This document shows, one piece after another, positions 16,604-48,313 of a stretch of 52,844 nt of DNA. Source of the stretch: Candidatus Tenebribacter davisii (lineage in GTDB: Bacteria; Cloacimonadota; Cloacimonadia; Cloacimonadales; TCS61); NCBI GenBank assembly GCA_030765535.1, contig JAVCCH010000176.1, positions 1 to 52,844 on the forward strand, given 5' to 3'. The position numbers and the translations under genes were made by a program. Position 1 is the first letter of the stretch; every line of letters starts with the position of its first letter. Under the pieces are notes generated by a model. That model was not told where the DNA came from. It saw only the letters and a list, made by a program, of their open reading frames with translations, and made no database searches.

Positions 16604-16816
16604 ATGAAGGGAACTGTAAAATGGTTTAATGAAGGGAAAGGTTTTGGTTTTATTATTACAGATGAAGGAAAAGAATTTTTCGTTCACTGGAAATCAATAG
16701 TTACAGCATCAGAATTGGGAAGAAAAACTCTTATTCCGGATGAAGAAGTTGAATTTGACACAATTGAAACTGATAGAGGAATTCAAGCGATCAATGTTAT
16801 CAGAGTAAATCCCTGA
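16604..16816 (+). CDS. Cold-shock protein, CspA family
   Basis: 70 aa, the full length of the family. The single OB-fold carries RNP1 (KGFGFI, residues 12-17) and an RNP2-like strand (EFFVHW, 24-29). It opens MKGTVKWFNEGKGFGF, diagnostic for single-stranded nucleic acid binding cold-shock proteins. It has ATKKxxG-free spacing and ends VIRVNP. AAGGAAG precedes the ATG. It is probably monocistronic, because a hairpin terminator follows 20 bases after the stop. The 5' leader of about 60 bases is too short to show a thermosensor. Confidence 0.93.
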   Translation: MKGTVKWFNEGKGFGFIITDEGKEFFVHWKSIVTASELGRKTLIPDEEVEFDTIETDRGIQAINVIRVNP

Positions 16817-40594: not shown

Positions 40595-42823
40595 CTACTT
40601 CATTAACAGCATTTTCTTTGAAACTTCAGAAGAAGCTGTCTTCATTTTTACAAAGTACATTCCACTTGATGTAGAATTGCCATTATTGTCCTTTCCATTC
40701 CAAACAACAGTTGTATTCTGCATGATCTCATTATTAACAATTGTTCTTACAAGCTGACCTTTAATATTGAATATCTTAACTGAAACAGGTTTCAGAAGGT
40801 CATTTTCGTTAATTGAAAGTGCAATATTCGCTGTTGGATTAAATGGATTTGGATATACAGAAATTGAATTTACTGCAGCTATATTAATTGTGTTGTCTTC
40901 GGAATCTGTTGGCTGCATTCCATTAGGCCCGCCATAAGCGCCCATATCATTTCTTGATCCATCAACATCATTGTACATTGCATCAGGATTTCCTGCATCG
41001 ATGCAAGGTGATCCTGTCTGCAGACTCCAGTTTGCTGTAAGTCCGTCATAACCTGATCCATCTCCATCTGAGGGTGATATAAAGAGAGGCTCTCCCTCGA
41101 TATTACCTTCTCCTGCAAATCCGCCGGTAACACAACTATAAGTGATCTCCGGAGTACTTTGCGGGAAGTATATTTCACCATTATCAATGATGATCGAGTT
41201 AGAAATAACAGGAACTGAACTTAACAGGAAGAATAAATATGGAGATGCATTAGTAGATAAATTATTAGCAATTGTGTTATTTACTAAAGTTGCATTAGAA
41301 TCATTCTTGAAACTAAATGCTCCCCATTGTCCTGTGTTATTTGCAACTATATTATTGCTGATCTCAGGAGATGATGCAGTACATCTAATAGCTCCGGCAC
41401 AATTTGAACTTGTGTTATTTACAATAACATTTTGTGAGATCAAAACATCATTGGAACCAACTATTTCAATAGCTGCAGCTTGTGAAGATGTATTATTATC
41501 ATGTATAATACATCCAACAATATCTACTTGTGAGTCACCTTCAATTATGATGGCAGAATCAGAAGTATTAGAAATATCACAATTTGCAATAATGTTTTCT
41601 TCTTGAGTACTGAAGAATCTTATACCATTCCAGGAAGTATCAGAAGTAAAGATAATTGGCTCACTTCTTGTTTCAGAAGCATCTGCAAGTAGAAGTCCAT
41701 TAACTGTGAATTGAGCGTCATTTTCAATATTGATTTCAGCTCCTTCATAAATTGTCAGCATGTCACCTGTGACAATTTCAACATCACCGGTTATCGTATA
41801 CTCATTCCCAGCAAGCCATGCTCCAGAAAGATTCCCAGAAATTGCGGAACCATCCGTTACCGTAATTAGTTCTGTAGCGGTAGTTTCTTCAGTTTCACCA
41901 TCTACAGTAATTCTAAGGGTAACATCATACACACCAGACACAGTGTATAAATGATAAGGGTTTTCCTGAGTACTGTCAAATGTTCCATCACCGTCAAAAT
42001 CCCATTCCCACATATCTATACCTGTTTGCGGGAAGGATGTACTGGTGAATTGAACACCAAGATATGCGGGGCCTTCCGTTACGTTTGTAGAAAACATTGG
42101 AAGAAGACCTGTGATTGATGATTGAGCTGCCTGTAGTATTGGGTATGTACTAAATGGAGCTTCAGGATATCCATTTACAACAAAAGTACCAGTAGAATTT
42201 GTATGTTGAATTATTACAACTCCCATGATATTAGCTACATCCCAGGTTGGATCAAAGGTAAAATTATGTTGAAACTGTTGAGTTGAACCAGATGTTGTAA
42301 GATTGAAATCTTCCTCCGCATATCGAACAACTGTTGAGTTATAACTATCAGAAAAATAATATTTCAGCATATATATGATTCTATAGTCATCTGCCGGAAT
42401 AGTTTCGGTCATAAGTACATCTGCTATTACAGCAAATTGTCCACCACTAACACCTAAGTCCATAGCTATCTCAATTGGACTAGATTGATTAACAATGCCA
42501 TTATAAATATTTTGATATCGATTATATGCAGATCCACCACCAATATCAAAAGTGTCTCCGTTAAAACCAGCTGATGGCAAATAATAAAGACCATATTCAT
42601 TACCTCTAGTAGAGTAATTTGGACTTGTGTGATTATCACCTTCCCATATCACAGAAATAAAATAATCTTGATTCTGACTCATTGTTAATAATGCAGCACG
42701 TGCATTAGGACAATTAGGTCACCAATCCTCTGAGAAAACTTCTCCCACAACAAAACGCTGTGTTGCAAATGCTGATAATGCCATAAGAAGAAGTAAGCTA
42801 ATTAATAAGAATTTCTTTTTCAT
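40595..42823 (-). CDS. Probable selenocysteine-containing secreted protein: thioredoxin-like, PKD, beta-helix and sorting domain (in-frame TGA at 42719-42721)
   Basis: 742 codons from ATG 42823, behind a strong GGAGG. A frame starting at 42682 would lose the signal peptide. Signal peptide 1-20; then RFVVGEVFSEDW-[TGA]-PNCPNARAAL, where the TGA (codon 35) stands at the first Cys of the CxxC of an Omp28/thioredoxin-like domain (about 22-215). A PKD domain (about 225-295; WEWDFDGDGTFDS), a right-handed beta-helix (about 340-560) and a sorting domain (YPNPFNPT, FNIKGQLVRT, SGMYFVKM) follow. The homologous lipoprotein in the same operon has FTAISCVNCPVVEEAL, with Cys at the TGA position. A SECIS-like hairpin follows the TGA. 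The alternative is a nonsense mutation; the frame downstream is intact for 707 codons. Confidence 0.75.
42689..42707 (-). promoter_or_regulatory. SECIS-like stem-loop 11 nt after the in-frame TGA
   Basis: In the transcript TAATGCA pairs perfectly with TGCATTA (7 bp) around the loop CGUGC. The stem starts 11 nt and the loop 18 nt after the UGA, and the second loop base is G. Bacterial SECIS elements are hairpins shortly downstream of UGA with a G near the start of the apical loop, so geometry fits. The stem also encodes protein (N-A-R-A-A-L), so some pairing could be chance. Confidence 0.55.
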
Positions 42824-42841
42824 TTTTGAGTCCTCCTTTTT

Positions 42842-43576
42842 TTATTTTATTGAGATCATTTTTTTAACTGCAGAATTTTCTACTCCAGTTAGTTTATAAA
42901 AATAAATTCCTGAATTGACGATAATATCATTGTTATTTGTCCCATTCCAAACAATATTTCCACTTGTATTGAGATTATTAAAAGTTTTAATTAATTGTCC
43001 TTTTGTATTATAAATTGTAATGCTGGCACTTGCCAATTCCTGCTGTGATATTTCGTAGGAAATTGTAGTACTTGGATTAAATGGATTTGGATAATTTGAT
43101 AATATAATATTATCCGGATCTACTGTATGATCAACACTTCCGCTTACAAAGTTTTCCGGATAGAAAGTAAACTCTACTACTACCGGTTCGGTTAACGTTG
43201 CTGAAGTAAATGTGTATGTTAAGGTGCAATCATCTAAACTACTCACATTTGTGAAGACAAAATCAAGCTTAAGCAAACTTCCATTTAGGAATTCAAAATC
43301 CCAACTAGGTGATACATGGCAGGTACCTACACCATCTAATTCATGACACCACATAAGATTCCACCCGTCAGGTAGATCAATAGGTTCTACAGTTAAATTG
43401 AACATCTCTGTAATACCTAAGTTAGTTACATCAAATTGATCAGATGTAAATGTATATGGAGTAACTTCATAAGGTGGTCCTAATACAGGATTTCCAAATG
43501 GAATATTAATCTCCAATTCTGCAAACACAAAACTTAAACTCATTAATAAAACTGTGAATAAAATTAATCTTTTCAT
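42842..43576 (-). CDS. Small secreted sorting-domain protein with a Trp-Cys...Cys domain
   Basis: 244 aa. GGAGATAAAAG precedes the ATG; signal peptide 1-19 (SFVFA). Residues about 25-150 are a beta-sandwich-like domain with DLPDGWNLMWCHELDG and VGTCHVSP, the W...C...C pattern seen in secreted proteins of Bacteroidota that accompany Omp28/thioredoxin-like proteins. The C-terminal ~85 residues are the sorting domain (SNYPNPFNPS, YNTKGQLIKT, SGIYFYKLTG, KKMISIK). It lies 18 bases upstream of the probable selenoprotein gene and 17 downstream of the beta-barrel gene. It could be a disulfide-bearing partner or substrate of that protein; function unknown. Confidence 0.7.
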   Translation of the reverse strand: MKRLILFTVLLMSLSFVFAELEINIPFGNPVLGPPYEVTPYTFTSDQFDVTNLGITEMFNLTVEPIDLPDGWNLMWCHELDGVGTCHVSPSWDFEFLNGSLLKLDFVFTNVSSLDDCTLTYTFTSATLTEPVVVEFTFYPENFVSGSVDHTVDPDNIILSNYPNPFNPSTTISYEISQQELASASITIYNTKGQLIKTFNNLNTSGNIVWNGTNNNDIIVNSGIYFYKLTGVENSAVKKMISIK

Positions 43577-43593: not shown

Positions 43594-45006
43594 TTAAAAT
43601 GTTGTTGTTAATGTCAGGCGTAAACCCTCAAATTCAGCTTGATATTTACAAACACCATTTCGACAAACTAAACCGCCCTTTTCTTTTCCGACAAATAAAC
43701 GGATATCGGTATTCCCGAAGATAGAAGCAGCTAATTCCGCTCCAACCCAGAATTCTCCATCATCACCTTCTTGTGATTCACCGAGTTGATTTTCTATTGT
43801 TATAGATGCTGAATAATTTCCGATAGAGATATCAGTTTGAAGCTTTGGTTCATAATGAGAAATGTTTTCAGCACCATTGTCTTCCTCTTTATATTGATAT
43901 TCAGTTTTTATTGTAATAGGGAGATCCTTCACCATAAAGTCAAAGCTCAAAGCTGGAGTAAGCTCTTTATACCAGTTGTTGGCACTTTCTGTATTTATCT
44001 GCTCCAGGGCACCATATTCAGCCTTAATTGAAAGATTTTCAAAATCGTGTTTGAATTCAGAATATAGATCTGACTGGCGAACTTTGAAATTACTGTTCCA
44101 GCCTTCAGCATAATTTAAGACTAATTCATTTTCATAATTCGGTAGGAAACGTATTTCACCCATTAGTCCTTCTTCATCTCTTCCCGGGTCCCAACTGTGT
44201 TCCAGTTGCTGTCCACTATGGTTTGCCATTGGAAGGTCGGTAATTTTTGTATTGAAATTCTCATATTTTTTATAAGCAGTCAGAAAGGTGAATTTACCTA
44301 AATAAGCTGTTGCATTGGAATAAATTCCAGTTCCTTCAATATTTTTATCGTCTGAACTACGAGCATATTCTGCATTTAAATCGAATAGATCATTGAAAAA
44401 ATATAATCTTCCAGTAACAATGTCGCGCTGGTTATCATCAAATTGCTGCTGCATTATATAGCCGCCACCAATTTTTAAGTTGTCCTTTATATTAATATCA
44501 GCATCAACTGTACCAATATTATCATTCTCATTTTCATCACTTACATTCTCCATAAGTCCATAGAATACTTGAGCCTGAAACTTATCAAAAAAGGTTTGTG
44601 CATAACCTCCGGTAAGTCTTTAATCATCTTCGAAATCAACATCATAATAATTATGCAATACCATCCCGCTGCCTATTACAGCATCATAAGTTCCTGCTTT
44701 AAAGAAGAAATGATCTGATTCAAATTGCAGAAAATATTCATCAAAATAATTTTCATCTGTTTCATTGCCAGCAATCTCCACACTTAAAAAACGATCATAT
44801 TTAGGTTTAAGAAAATCGTATTTTGCGCCAACAGATAAATTTTTATAAAATAATTGCAGTTGAAGTTTATCAAAAAAGTAACTTTTATAATCATCGCCTA
44901 TGTCCCTTGAGATGAACTGAAATTCATTTAGTATTGAATACGAGATTTCTGCATAAATTGAAACTATAATCAGGAGAAGAACTAATATTGAGATTAATAT
45001 TTTCAT
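43594..45006 (-). pseudogene. DUF6029-like outer-membrane beta-barrel protein interrupted by an in-frame TAA
   Basis: The ATG at 45006 opens 128 codons with a signal peptide (IVSIYA) and amphipathic strands (FDKLQLQLFYKNLSVGAKYD). TAA (44622-44620) follows VDFEDD, and the same frame goes on without shift as RLTGGYAQTFFDKFQAQVFY through to 43594, giving 470 codons in all. Content (aromatic-rich strands, FFFKAGTYDAVIGSGMVLHN) matches the DUF6029-type barrels often placed beside TlpA and Omp28 genes. TAA cannot be selenocysteine. The frame beyond it is intact, so the mutation is recent, or it is a sequencing error, or translation restarts at the internal ATG 44553. Confidence 0.65.
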
Positions 45007-45008
45007 AG

Positions 45009-45524
45009 TTATTCTGACTCTTCAATTTTCTTATCTGATTGAGGAAGTGATTTTAACCAATTCTCAATGACTTCTTTATAATGCTTTTCATCTCCGCGTT
45101 TAAAACCGGTATGCTCGAGCAATATCTCACCATCAGGTGCAATAATAATAGTAACCGGGATATTTATAATATTATATTGCTTTTGAACTATTTTCTTAGA
45201 ATCCAGCAGAGTATGAAATTCATATTTATGTGATTTTACTTCTGCAATTGCCTTTGGCTGAGTTCTTGGTTTGTCTGTGCAGATAGTTACAACATTTACA
45301 TTTTCATACTGTTTATGCAGTTTATTAAGTTCTGGTAAAGCCTTTTTACATGGTACGCACCAGCTTGCCCAGAAATCAAGAATTACAAGGCCTTCCTTTT
45401 GAAAGTCAGAAAGTTTTACCATTTTGCCTTTTATGTTTTCCAGTTGAAAATCTTGTGCTTTCTCTGCCGTAAACAGTGAAGCAGCAAGCAGTAGAATTAC
45501 AATTATCATAATAGTTTTATTCAT
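45009..45524 (-). CDS. TlpA/ResA-type thioredoxin-like protein
   Basis: 171 aa. A signal or anchor segment (1-20) is followed by a thioredoxin fold: ENIKGKMVKLSDFQKEGLVI, LDFWASWCVPCKKALPEL with Cys 56 and 59, and NIINIPVTIIIAPDGE with the cis-Pro. It acts in the periplasm as a disulfide reductase, taking electrons from a DsbD/CcdA-type donor. That donor is encoded two genes upstream in the same operon. Spacings are 5 bases to the Omp28-like gene and 2 to the barrel gene. No cytochrome c maturation genes are nearby, so its target is more likely the operon's own exported thiol proteins. Confidence 0.9.
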   Translation of the reverse strand: MNKTIMIIVILLLAASLFTAEKAQDFQLENIKGKMVKLSDFQKEGLVILDFWASWCVPCKKALPELNKLHKQYENVNVVTICTDKPRTQPKAIAEVKSHKYEFHTLLDSKKIVQKQYNIINIPVTIIIAPDGEILLEHTGFKRGDEKHYKEVIENWLKSLPQSDKKIEESE

Positions 45525-45529
45525 TATAA

Positions 45530-46633
45530 TTATCTCCTATCTATTAATTTTTCAATTACATTATATATAGTGCAGGTACTCTGATTATATGGATTTTCTA
45601 AGGTCTGTACCCAAAGCACGAGAACAATATCATCTGGAAGTTGCTGATAACCTGATGCAAGCTGATCTAGATCTGGAATAACAAAATTCTGAAGACCTGA
45701 TGAAGAAATACTTACAGTTTCACGTTTCAGTTCAATATTATGAAGATTTTCTCCATTATGATTTTGATGTTCAGTACTTAATTTTTCCATTAATGTTGTT
45801 ACCAGGAATAAATTATCAGTAGATATGGAAGGATCTAATTCGATCTGCACAGAACCATAAAGGCTATCTGCATTAATAATTGTCTCTACATCAGAAAGAT
45901 TGACCAGTATTAGTTGTTCCATAAGCGGCAGTATCACATCATCAATTTCCTGTTGGACCGTGGGAAAAGAACCTGTGATGATCTGGGCGTTTCCATTTAT
46001 TACTGTATAGGGGAGAGATCCTTGACTTCCATAATAGAAGAGAAGAGGAAGATTACCTGGATCTAAAACATCGTTGATATGATATTCAACATAAGACAGT
46101 CTGCTACCATATTGCTCTTTAAGATTATGCAGAGCTTCCTCAACAACAGGACAATTTACGCAGGAAATGGCAGTGAACATCTCTATCATTACATTTCTCA
46201 TATCTGCCTGATTCCCGTAAAATTGATAAGAATCTTCAGTTTTTATTAAGATATCGGAGATTAAAGTATCCATGAATGTAATTTCTGAATCCGGGCTTGT
46301 TACAAGTAGATTCCAAGCAATTTCATACCCGCTGGTATCAATTAAAGTGGCTTCAAATTCCAAAGGTATATTTACATAATAAAATGCTTCGTAAAATATC
46401 TCAACATCAGATTTAATTAAACCATTATTGTTATAATCATCTTGAAAAAAGAGCATGATATTCGAAACATTTTCTGCAGGAAGAATACTTTCGATTGAAT
46501 CAGCAAATTCTACAAAAAAATCTGAGATCCAATTCTCAGCTTCCTGTTCCGGAGCCAGTTCATGTTCAAACCTATCACAAGCAATAATTATAACCAAAAT
46601 AACTGCTAATGATATAAGTAATATTTTTTTCAT
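45530..46633 (-). CDS. Omp28/thioredoxin-like lipoprotein with CVNC
   Basis: 367 aa. Lipobox IIACDR (Cys 19) predicts a lipoprotein. Residues 20-145 are a beta-rich N-terminal domain. Residues about 146-300 fit the Omp28/thioredoxin-like fold: MIEMFTAISCVNCPVVEEAL with Cys 158 and 161, YVEYHINDVLDPGNLPLLFY, and SLPYTVING near the expected cis-Pro. The ATG lies directly after the stop of the DsbD gene, so the two are coupled. It probably takes electrons from DsbD and passes them on at the envelope. Its FTAISCVNCPVVEEAL aligns with FSEDW-[TGA]-PNCPNARAAL of the last gene in the operon, key evidence for recoding. Confidence 0.8.
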   Translation of the reverse strand: MKKILLISLAVILVIIIACDRFEHELAPEQEAENWISDFFVEFADSIESILPAENVSNIMLFFQDDYNNNGLIKSDVEIFYEAFYYVNIPLEFEATLIDTSGYEIAWNLLVTSPDSEITFMDTLISDILIKTEDSYQFYGNQADMRNVMIEMFTAISCVNCPVVEEALHNLKEQYGSRLSYVEYHINDVLDPGNLPLLFYYGSQGSLPYTVINGNAQIITGSFPTVQQEIDDVILPLMEQLILVNLSDVETIINADSLYGSVQIELDPSISTDNLFLVTTLMEKLSTEHQNHNGENLHNIELKRETVSISSSGLQNFVIPDLDQLASGYQQLPDDIVLVLWVQTLENPYNQSTCTIYNVIEKLIDRR

Positions 46634-48313
46634 CTATTCCTCATCCAACTTTTTCAACATATTCATCACCATATCTTTAGTGATCAATTCAGGTAACGTA
46701 ACTGGTTTTTCCTTACCAGGTATATAAAGGATATAGAGTGGTACTCCTGCTCTGCCAAATTTTCGCAGCCATTCTCCAATTACATCATCTTTTTTTGTAT
46801 TATCACCACGTAATATTTCAACACCACGATCTTTGAAAGCTGTTTCAATGTCATCAGTAAAAAGTACAGCAGTTTCATTTGTTTTACAAGTCAGGCACCA
46901 TTCAGCTCCAAAATCAATGAAGACAGGCTTACCCTCATCACGATACTGTTGAACGAGTTCAGGTGAAAATTTTTGCCACTCACGTGGATAGTGAGCGCTT
47001 TCTTCTGTTAAGTTTTCTGTAGAAGCATAATCAAGAGTCATAAAACCTGCTCCAACGGCAATTATCAATGCCGCAATAGTAGCGATCCATTGTTTTCTCT
47101 TAGAAAATTCTGGACGTGCAAAGCGACCATAAATCCAGACAGCAAAAGCTAAAATAATGAGATAAAGAAGTACGCTTATCAGGTTAATTCCACCAATGAG
47201 GAAATAAAGAGAACGCAGTAAATAAAGTGCAGTTAGGAAAAGCAGGAAGCCCATTACTTCCTTAAATACATTCATCCACTCACCTGGCTTAGGAATCGCT
47301 TTGATAGCTTTTGGCCAGAATCCCAGCAGAATAAATGGGAAGGCCAGGCCTAATCCAATAAGGATAAAAATACCAAATATCATAGCCGGAGGTTGAGAGA
47401 AGGCAAAGCCAAGAGCTGCCCCAAGTAGTGGTGCTGTACATGGTGTTGCTAATAGAACTGCGAAAATTCCACTTAAGAAAGATCCCATCAAGCCACCTTT
47501 CGATGATGCTTTTGTTGCTACTGTCATTCCCGGTGCTCTAATAATGAAGACATCAAACATGGATAATGAGAAGACAAAGATCAATATAAGTAACGCAGTT
47601 ACAAAACCGGCACTCTGGAATTGGAAGCCCCAGCCTACCATTTCACCTGATGTTTTTAAGATTACGATCACAAGAGCCAGAATAATAAACGAAGTAAGAA
47701 TTCCAGCTGTATACGCTAAAGAACTTCTTAATATTTGTTTTTTATCTTGTTGACTTTGTTTTACCAGGCTCATAGCTTTAATAGATAAAACTGGAAGTAC
47801 ACAAGGCATTATATTAAGGATCAATCCACCCAGGAAAGCCATTAATAAATATTTTAATATTTCCATTGGATTTGTTTTAGCAGAAACATCATTATTGCCC
47901 GATTGAAAAGTAAGATCGAATTCCAATTCTTCCGGCATAAAACAAGTTCCGCTATCAAGACACATCTGATATCCGGTATAAACTTTTATCTGAGGTTCTC
48001 CATTGAAATCTTCTGCAACCGTAAACTCTTTTATTAGGATTACAGTTCCATGATATTCAACATAACCATCTTCTGTTGTCTTTCCTTCAGGATAGATCGT
48101 AGATCCAAATGAAATTCCGTCAATTGGGTCTGTATCTATATAGAAAAGATCTTCCTGAAAAGTTAGGTGCATTCCTTCCGGTATAATGAAGGTTGCTATA
48201 ATTTTGTTTCCCTCTATCTTTGCTGACATTACATCTTGCGGGTCTGGTGTTTGCGCAAAAAGCGATGTGATCACCATTAAAACGATAAAAGAAAGCCAAA
48301 AAATCTTCTTCAT
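46634..48313 (-). CDS. dsbD: Thiol:disulfide interchange protein DsbD
   Basis: 559 aa with all three DsbD domains. The N-terminal periplasmic domain (20-135) has the Cys pair in MCLDSGTCFMPEEL. The membrane domain (about 150-425, eight helices) has the Cys motifs NIMPCVLPVLSIKAMSL and ATPCTAPLLGAALGFA. The C-terminal thioredoxin domain has DFGAEWCLTCKTNE. It carries electrons from cytoplasmic thioredoxin across the inner membrane to periplasmic acceptors. It heads the six-gene operon ending at 40595; no promoter was pinned down in the roughly 60 bases before its ATG. The acceptors are probably the TlpA, the Omp28-like lipoprotein and the exported selenoprotein candidate of the same operon. 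Confidence 0.92.
   Translation of the reverse strand: MKKIFWLSFIVLMVITSLFAQTPDPQDVMSAKIEGNKIIATFIIPEGMHLTFQEDLFYIDTDPIDGISFGSTIYPEGKTTEDGYVEYHGTVILIKEFTVAEDFNGEPQIKVYTGYQMCLDSGTCFMPEELEFDLTFQSGNNDVSAKTNPMEILKYLLMAFLGGLILNIMPCVLPVLSIKAMSLVKQSQQDKKQILRSSLAYTAGILTSFIILALVIVILKTSGEMVGWGFQFQSAGFVTALLILIFVFSLSMFDVFIIRAPGMTVATKASSKGGLMGSFLSGIFAVLLATPCTAPLLGAALGFAFSQPPAMIFGIFILIGLGLAFPFILLGFWPKAIKAIPKPGEWMNVFKEVMGFLLFLTALYLLRSLYFLIGGINLISVLLYLIILAFAVWIYGRFARPEFSKRKQWIATIAALIIAVGAGFMTLDYASTENLTEESAHYPREWQKFSPELVQQYRDEGKPVFIDFGAEWCLTCKTNETAVLFTDDIETAFKDRGVEILRGDNTKKDDVIGEWLRKFGRAGVPLYILYIPGKEKPVTLPELITKDMVMNMLKKLDEE

Follow-up and report, generated by a model that had tools for sequence, protein, structure and literature searches.

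The window, a 52,844-nt contig of Candidatus Tenebribacter davisii, carries on its minus strand a gene whose frame, past an in-frame TGA, stays open to a stop at 40595. With the TGA read as selenocysteine (Sec), the 742-residue product would comprise, in order, a signal peptide, a thioredoxin fold with an Ig-like module, a PKD domain, a beta-helix and a T9SS type A tail. The features of the gene are as follows.

40595–42823, minus strand: predicted selenoprotein gene, 742 aa including Sec35
42832–42836, minus strand: GGAGG ribosome-binding site ahead of the ATG at 42823 (sequence)
42764–42823, minus strand: signal-peptide-like hydrophobic start, MKKKFLLISLLLLMALSAFA (sequence only, no signal-peptide predictor)
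42719–42721, minus strand: in-frame TGA at codon 35, first position of a UxxC (UPNC), very probably the Sec codon (sequence and family alignment)
42689–42707, minus strand: SECIS-like hairpin TAATGCA-CGTGC-TGCATTA (sequence and shuffle tests)
42182–42763, minus strand: thioredoxin fold plus Ig-like module (AlphaFold2 pLDDT 93; top PDB match HBP35, 5y1a, TM 0.74, E 9e-9)
41858–42055, minus strand: PKD domain
41261–41635, minus strand: right-handed beta-helix
40607–40858, minus strand: type A sorting domain of the T9SS (TIGR04183; 37.1 bits, above the cut-off of 23)

It stands last in a DsbD-lipoprotein-TlpA-DUF6029 redox operon, whose other members are:

42842–43576, minus strand: small secreted protein with a T9SS tail, a conserved neighbour
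43594–45006, minus strand: DUF6029 protein, probably an outer-membrane barrel, with an in-frame TAA at 44620–44622
45009–45524, minus strand: TlpA/ResA-type thioredoxin
45530–46633, minus strand: Omp28-like CxxC lipoprotein, a Cys paralog of the selenoprotein domain
46634–48313, minus strand: DsbD transmembrane thiol reductase with a C-terminal thioredoxin

A sequence-only reading of this locus had described an ATG at 42823 preceded by GGAGG and opening a signal-peptide-like start, a TGA at codon 35 followed by an open frame, and a 7-bp hairpin whose 5-nt loop, CGUGC, begins 18 nt past the TGA and has G at its second position; each of these is seen in the DNA as described. The Cys counterpart it had placed in the lipoprotein is also found, with FTAISCVNCPVVEEAL occupying the same column of the family HMM alignment. 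Two further TGA codons lie within long frames of the window, at 16814 on the plus strand and 8714 on the minus strand, and are probably ordinary stops beside gene starts.

Homologs of the gene, with stops read through and counted, are present in 104 of 125 genomes of Candidatus Cloacimonadota, and among the matches listed each contains either no stop or one TGA. In an HMM alignment of the fetched Cloacimonadota loci, 59 distinct homologs carry TGA in the column of codon 35 and a further 55 carry a Cys codon, the alternation that the earlier reading had named as support for a Sec codon. TAA or TAG does not occur at this codon among homologs listed with all stops read through; in the alignment of loci itself, frames were split at TAA and TAG, so members with these stops were not directly scored. 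A scan of named genomes, in which the profile alignment was cut after the motif, found TGA homologs in MAGs of Neomarinimicrobiota, KSB1 and Eisenbacteria as well. Within the window's own genus, a contig of genome G094 matches Ca. Tenebribacter burtonii.

The TGA is a single base away from TGC and TGT, and the neighbouring DUF6029 gene contains an in-frame TAA, both of which would fit a point mutation (the main rival in the earlier reading), a read error or a pseudogene stop. However, 59 homologs share this TGA at the matching codon and it turns up in independent genomes from several phyla; this recurrence rules out a point mutation or read error, and the 704 codons downstream of it give a dN/dS of 0.127 against a 71%-identical relative. 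On recurrence and dN/dS together we rejected all three explanations, whose remaining likelihood we regard as negligible.

The machinery for Sec insertion is encoded in the same genome, an assembly of 218 contigs that is 95% complete. We found selA, with a yedF-like gene downstream of it, selB adjoining a selC that encodes a tRNA-Sec with anticodon UCA, and a selD that contains an in-frame TGA of its own, so the complete selABCD set whose absence would have refuted the earlier reading is present. In family f2, SelB scored above cut-off in none of 50 genomes, and the homologs of this family are TGA-free among the matches listed. Some bacteria decode UGA with a SelB-delivered tRNA-Cys (PMC7609411; PMC11415595), a precedent for UGA being read here as Cys or, by plain suppression, as another residue, leaving a site without selenium. 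The tRNA of the window's genome argues against this, having the shape of a tRNA-Sec and a G before CCA rather than the U73 of selC*-type tRNA-Cys, as do the presence of selA and selD and the TGA within selD itself; we consider decoding as Cys or another residue very improbable. We are highly confident that the TGA at 42719–42721 encodes selenocysteine, Sec insertion being inferred and selenium unmeasured.

Evidence for a SECIS element comes mainly from the family. We tested position-restricted hairpins, placed a set distance past the codon, against synonymous-codon shuffles; these tests and the Fisher test below are uncorrected for relatedness. Taken by itself, the hairpin of the window gene is only modest (E −5.7, p 0.043). 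TGA members have a mean z of −2.15 (n = 49), with p < 0.05 in 26 of 49, about half of them thus lacking a significant hairpin in this simple scan, whereas Cys members that are not Sec candidates average −0.4 to −0.7. TGC members from genomes with a GCA-anticodon tRNA-Sec, discussed below, reach a mean z of −3.70 (n = 12), with p < 0.05 in 10 of 12. In 54 of 58 genes, the wobble base of the +6 Ala codon goes with the residue encoded at +9, a purine accompanying Ala and a pyrimidine accompanying Gly; the Ala wobble is silent, and this covariation (Fisher p 7e-12) is what pairing in the stem demands. The family-wide SECIS-like signal is far from chance and, as judged from these sequence statistics, is conserved beyond the needs of the protein, so the pairing that the earlier reading had sought in relatives is indeed kept. 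Whole-region minimum free energy was dropped as a SECIS test, being too diluted to separate TGA from Cys members.

The N-terminal domain gives profile matches to thioredoxins and HBP35 and only weak Pfam matches (DUF1223, glutaredoxin, Omp28), and on the AlphaFold2 model it is a thioredoxin fold of HBP35/Omp28 type followed by an Ig-like module. The earlier proposal that the protein is sorted to the cell surface is supported: the TIGR04183 domain scores over its cut-off and the T9SS translocon protein SprA is encoded in the genome (PF14349, 67.7 bits, over cut-off), while secretion itself is only predicted. Two other Sec subfamilies occur among the relatives. One has a CU-GxDxxAR motif in short proteins with frames of about 340–390 codons (L080, L081, L083, L085, L090 and others); another has CxxU-GxDYS (L047, L058, L069, L079, L092 and L077), and its member L077, from G055, has TGC at the site together with a hairpin of loop GGUCU.

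More than a dozen genomes keep together the genes for DsbD, the CxxC lipoprotein, TlpA, DUF6029, the small T9SS-tailed protein and the Sec/Cys protein, and G001, from the SelB-less family f2, also has most of this set. From this gene order and the roles of DsbD and TlpA elsewhere, we infer an envelope thiol relay with the selenoprotein at its outer end, a proposal we hold with roughly equal belief and doubt. In our main reading, SelB and tRNA-Sec(UCA) very probably decode the UGA at codon 35 as Sec under the direction of the hairpin just downstream, which gives a UxxC active site in the HBP35/Omp28-type domain. The signal peptide and T9SS type A tail would then take the protein to the cell surface, a step inferred from these signals, where it would end a chain of DsbD, TlpA, CxxC lipoprotein and DUF6029 barrel that passes reducing power out of the cytoplasm and through the envelope; the direction of electron flow is guesswork. 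DUF6029 is one unbroken frame in relatives and is split in the window by the TAA at 44620–44622, which is a pseudogene mutation or an assembly error, and given this TAA the relay may be damaged in the window's genome.

The strongest hairpins were kept by Cys members of some SelB-positive genomes, and we therefore predicted a recoded tRNA-Sec there. A search following this prediction found tRNA-Sec with anticodon GCA as the only type in eight genomes and both GCA and UCA types in G059; a wider set contained 9 GCA against 48 UCA genes. The GCA-type genes have the shape of a tRNA-Sec and a G before CCA, and ARAGORN calls them tRNA-Cys (L126, L127, L136, L138–L141, L143 and L144). A TGA homolog was found in none of the eight GCA-only genomes. 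Instead, TGC or TGT stands at the Sec sites of Omp28, SelD and FdhA in these eight, mostly with SECIS-like hairpins; in selD of G055 and G062, for example, TGC is followed by a hairpin (p 0.001 and 0.002). No selD hairpin was found in G103 and G104, where selD has Cys. With some GCA genomes having a Cys selD without a hairpin, the picture is mixed, and we dropped selD as a marker that would show the codon switch in every genome. Separately, G108 has two homologs with TGC or TGT and strong hairpins (L078), and only a UCA-type tRNA-Sec was found there; contamination, estimated at 6%, or a missing second system could account for this case.

FdhA has the Sec-site motif CARL[UC]HSSTV. It scores over cut-off in 7 of the 8 GCA-only genomes and in G059, compared with 1 of 10 UCA genomes tested, and its co-occurrence with GCA-type tRNA-Sec was noted in G055, G057, G058, G059, G062, G063, G103 and G104. 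The Sec-site codon is TGC or TGT in the GCA-type genomes and G059 and TGA in the UCA-type G083, and in all nine genes it is followed by GT[GA]GCC-GGTCT-GGCTGC. Only 4 of 185 amino-acid-invariant degenerate codons are identical in 9 of 9 FdhA genes, and these are +6 to +9 alone, the codons of the hairpin. TGC and TGT are also read by tRNA-Cys, and together with the hairpin-less Cys selD of G103 and G104 this leaves room for these codons being plain Cys and the hairpins relics. Against that stand the retained tRNA-Sec shape and G before CCA of the GCA-type genes, the identity of the FdhA hairpin codons and no others, and the greater strength of the hairpin in TGC than in TGA members, and we judge plain Cys with relic hairpins unlikely. 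From these sequence patterns, it appears that in some relatives, sister lineages of the window's, the role of UGA has passed to UGC and UGU, read as Sec by tRNA-Sec(GCA), with selenium unmeasured. The most surprising part of the analysis lies outside the window, in GCA relatives whose Omp28 family, SelD and FdhA seem to encode Sec by Cys codons.

A SelB tree groups all SelBs of the GCA genomes and the second one of G059 on one side, which they share with UCA SelBs from another family. This side also contains G084, a member of the window's family, beside G055, a position that suggests horizontal transfer. In G059 the GCA tRNA (C116), the second SelB/SelA (C82) and FdhA (C101) are on contigs apart from those of the UCA system, so that its dual system could be a binning artefact with contigs from a second organism. 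This is a real possibility, which we do not favour given that the MAG is estimated at 100% completeness and 1% contamination and has only a single selD. The most far-reaching interpretation, which we think somewhat more likely than not, is that within one phylum several selenoprotein genes (Omp28, SelD and FdhA) have together switched their Sec codon between UGA and UGC/UGU, that the GCA-type tRNA-Sec/SelB system owes its spread in part to horizontal transfer, and that at least one organism, the MAG G059, uses UGA (Omp28, SelD) and UGC (formate dehydrogenase) in parallel. The same genes of related bacteria would then offer a natural series of UGA, UGC/UGU and true Cys in which to study codon reassignment. 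A TGC selenoprotein can pass for a common Cys protein and ARAGORN takes the matching tRNA for a tRNA-Cys, and such systems are therefore hidden from annotation.

An Omp28-related selenoprotein was already predicted in marine bacteria as hypothetical protein GOS_C, now NF045500 (Zhang and Gladyshev 2008, PMC2398784), which qualifies the earlier reading. The marine homologs fall within this model. Among 119 families of prokaryotic selenoproteins, a catalogue from 2026 lists NF045500 as GOS_C and does not include the T9SS-tailed Omp28 form (PMC13188914). Against NF045500, with a curated cut-off of 200 bits, Neomarinimicrobiota members found in our scan score about 550–605 bits, T9SS-tailed relatives from KSB1, Eisenbacteria and one Neomarinimicrobiota 63–66 bits, and the window gene gives no match at E 0.1. 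Both NF045500 and the window gene have a UxxC in an Omp28-type thioredoxin fold, Sec encoded by UGA, and Cys homologs, but the window gene lies outside the NF045500 model and has an additional PKD domain, beta-helix and T9SS tail. It is thus a known kind of selenoprotein and a new T9SS-tailed branch, distantly related to NF045500, and puts Sec at what is probably the outer end of a conserved thiol operon of the envelope. HBP35 is a thioredoxin-domain protein secreted by the T9SS. The Porphyromonas gingivalis protein (5y1a) shares the fold of the window domain and a sequence profile match, and differs in having Cys in place of Sec and other accessory domains.

Among the papers found, none links Cloacimonadota with selenoproteins, and Cloacimonetes are linked with selenocysteine only by PMC5330540, according to which Mukai 2016 also described a Cloacimonetes-type tRNA-Sec. 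The same work is cited for Sec at Cys codons via tRNA-Sec(GCA) in Aeromonas salmonicida (PMC11415595; PMC10778597). Among the papers found, we saw no report of Cys-codon recoding for Omp28, SelD, FdhA or Cloacimonadota; some of the codon switch may already be described in Mukai 2016. The GCA-type genes differ from selC* tRNA-Cys in lacking the U73 discriminator that marks the latter, having G before CCA. The relatives share with Aeromonas salmonicida a tRNA-Sec with a Cys anticodon and Sec at UGC/UGU, the latter inferred in the relatives. They differ from it in phylum and in the genes involved; in addition, closely related genomes do not all use the same codon, and the MAG G059 seems to have a UGA and a UGC system at the same time.
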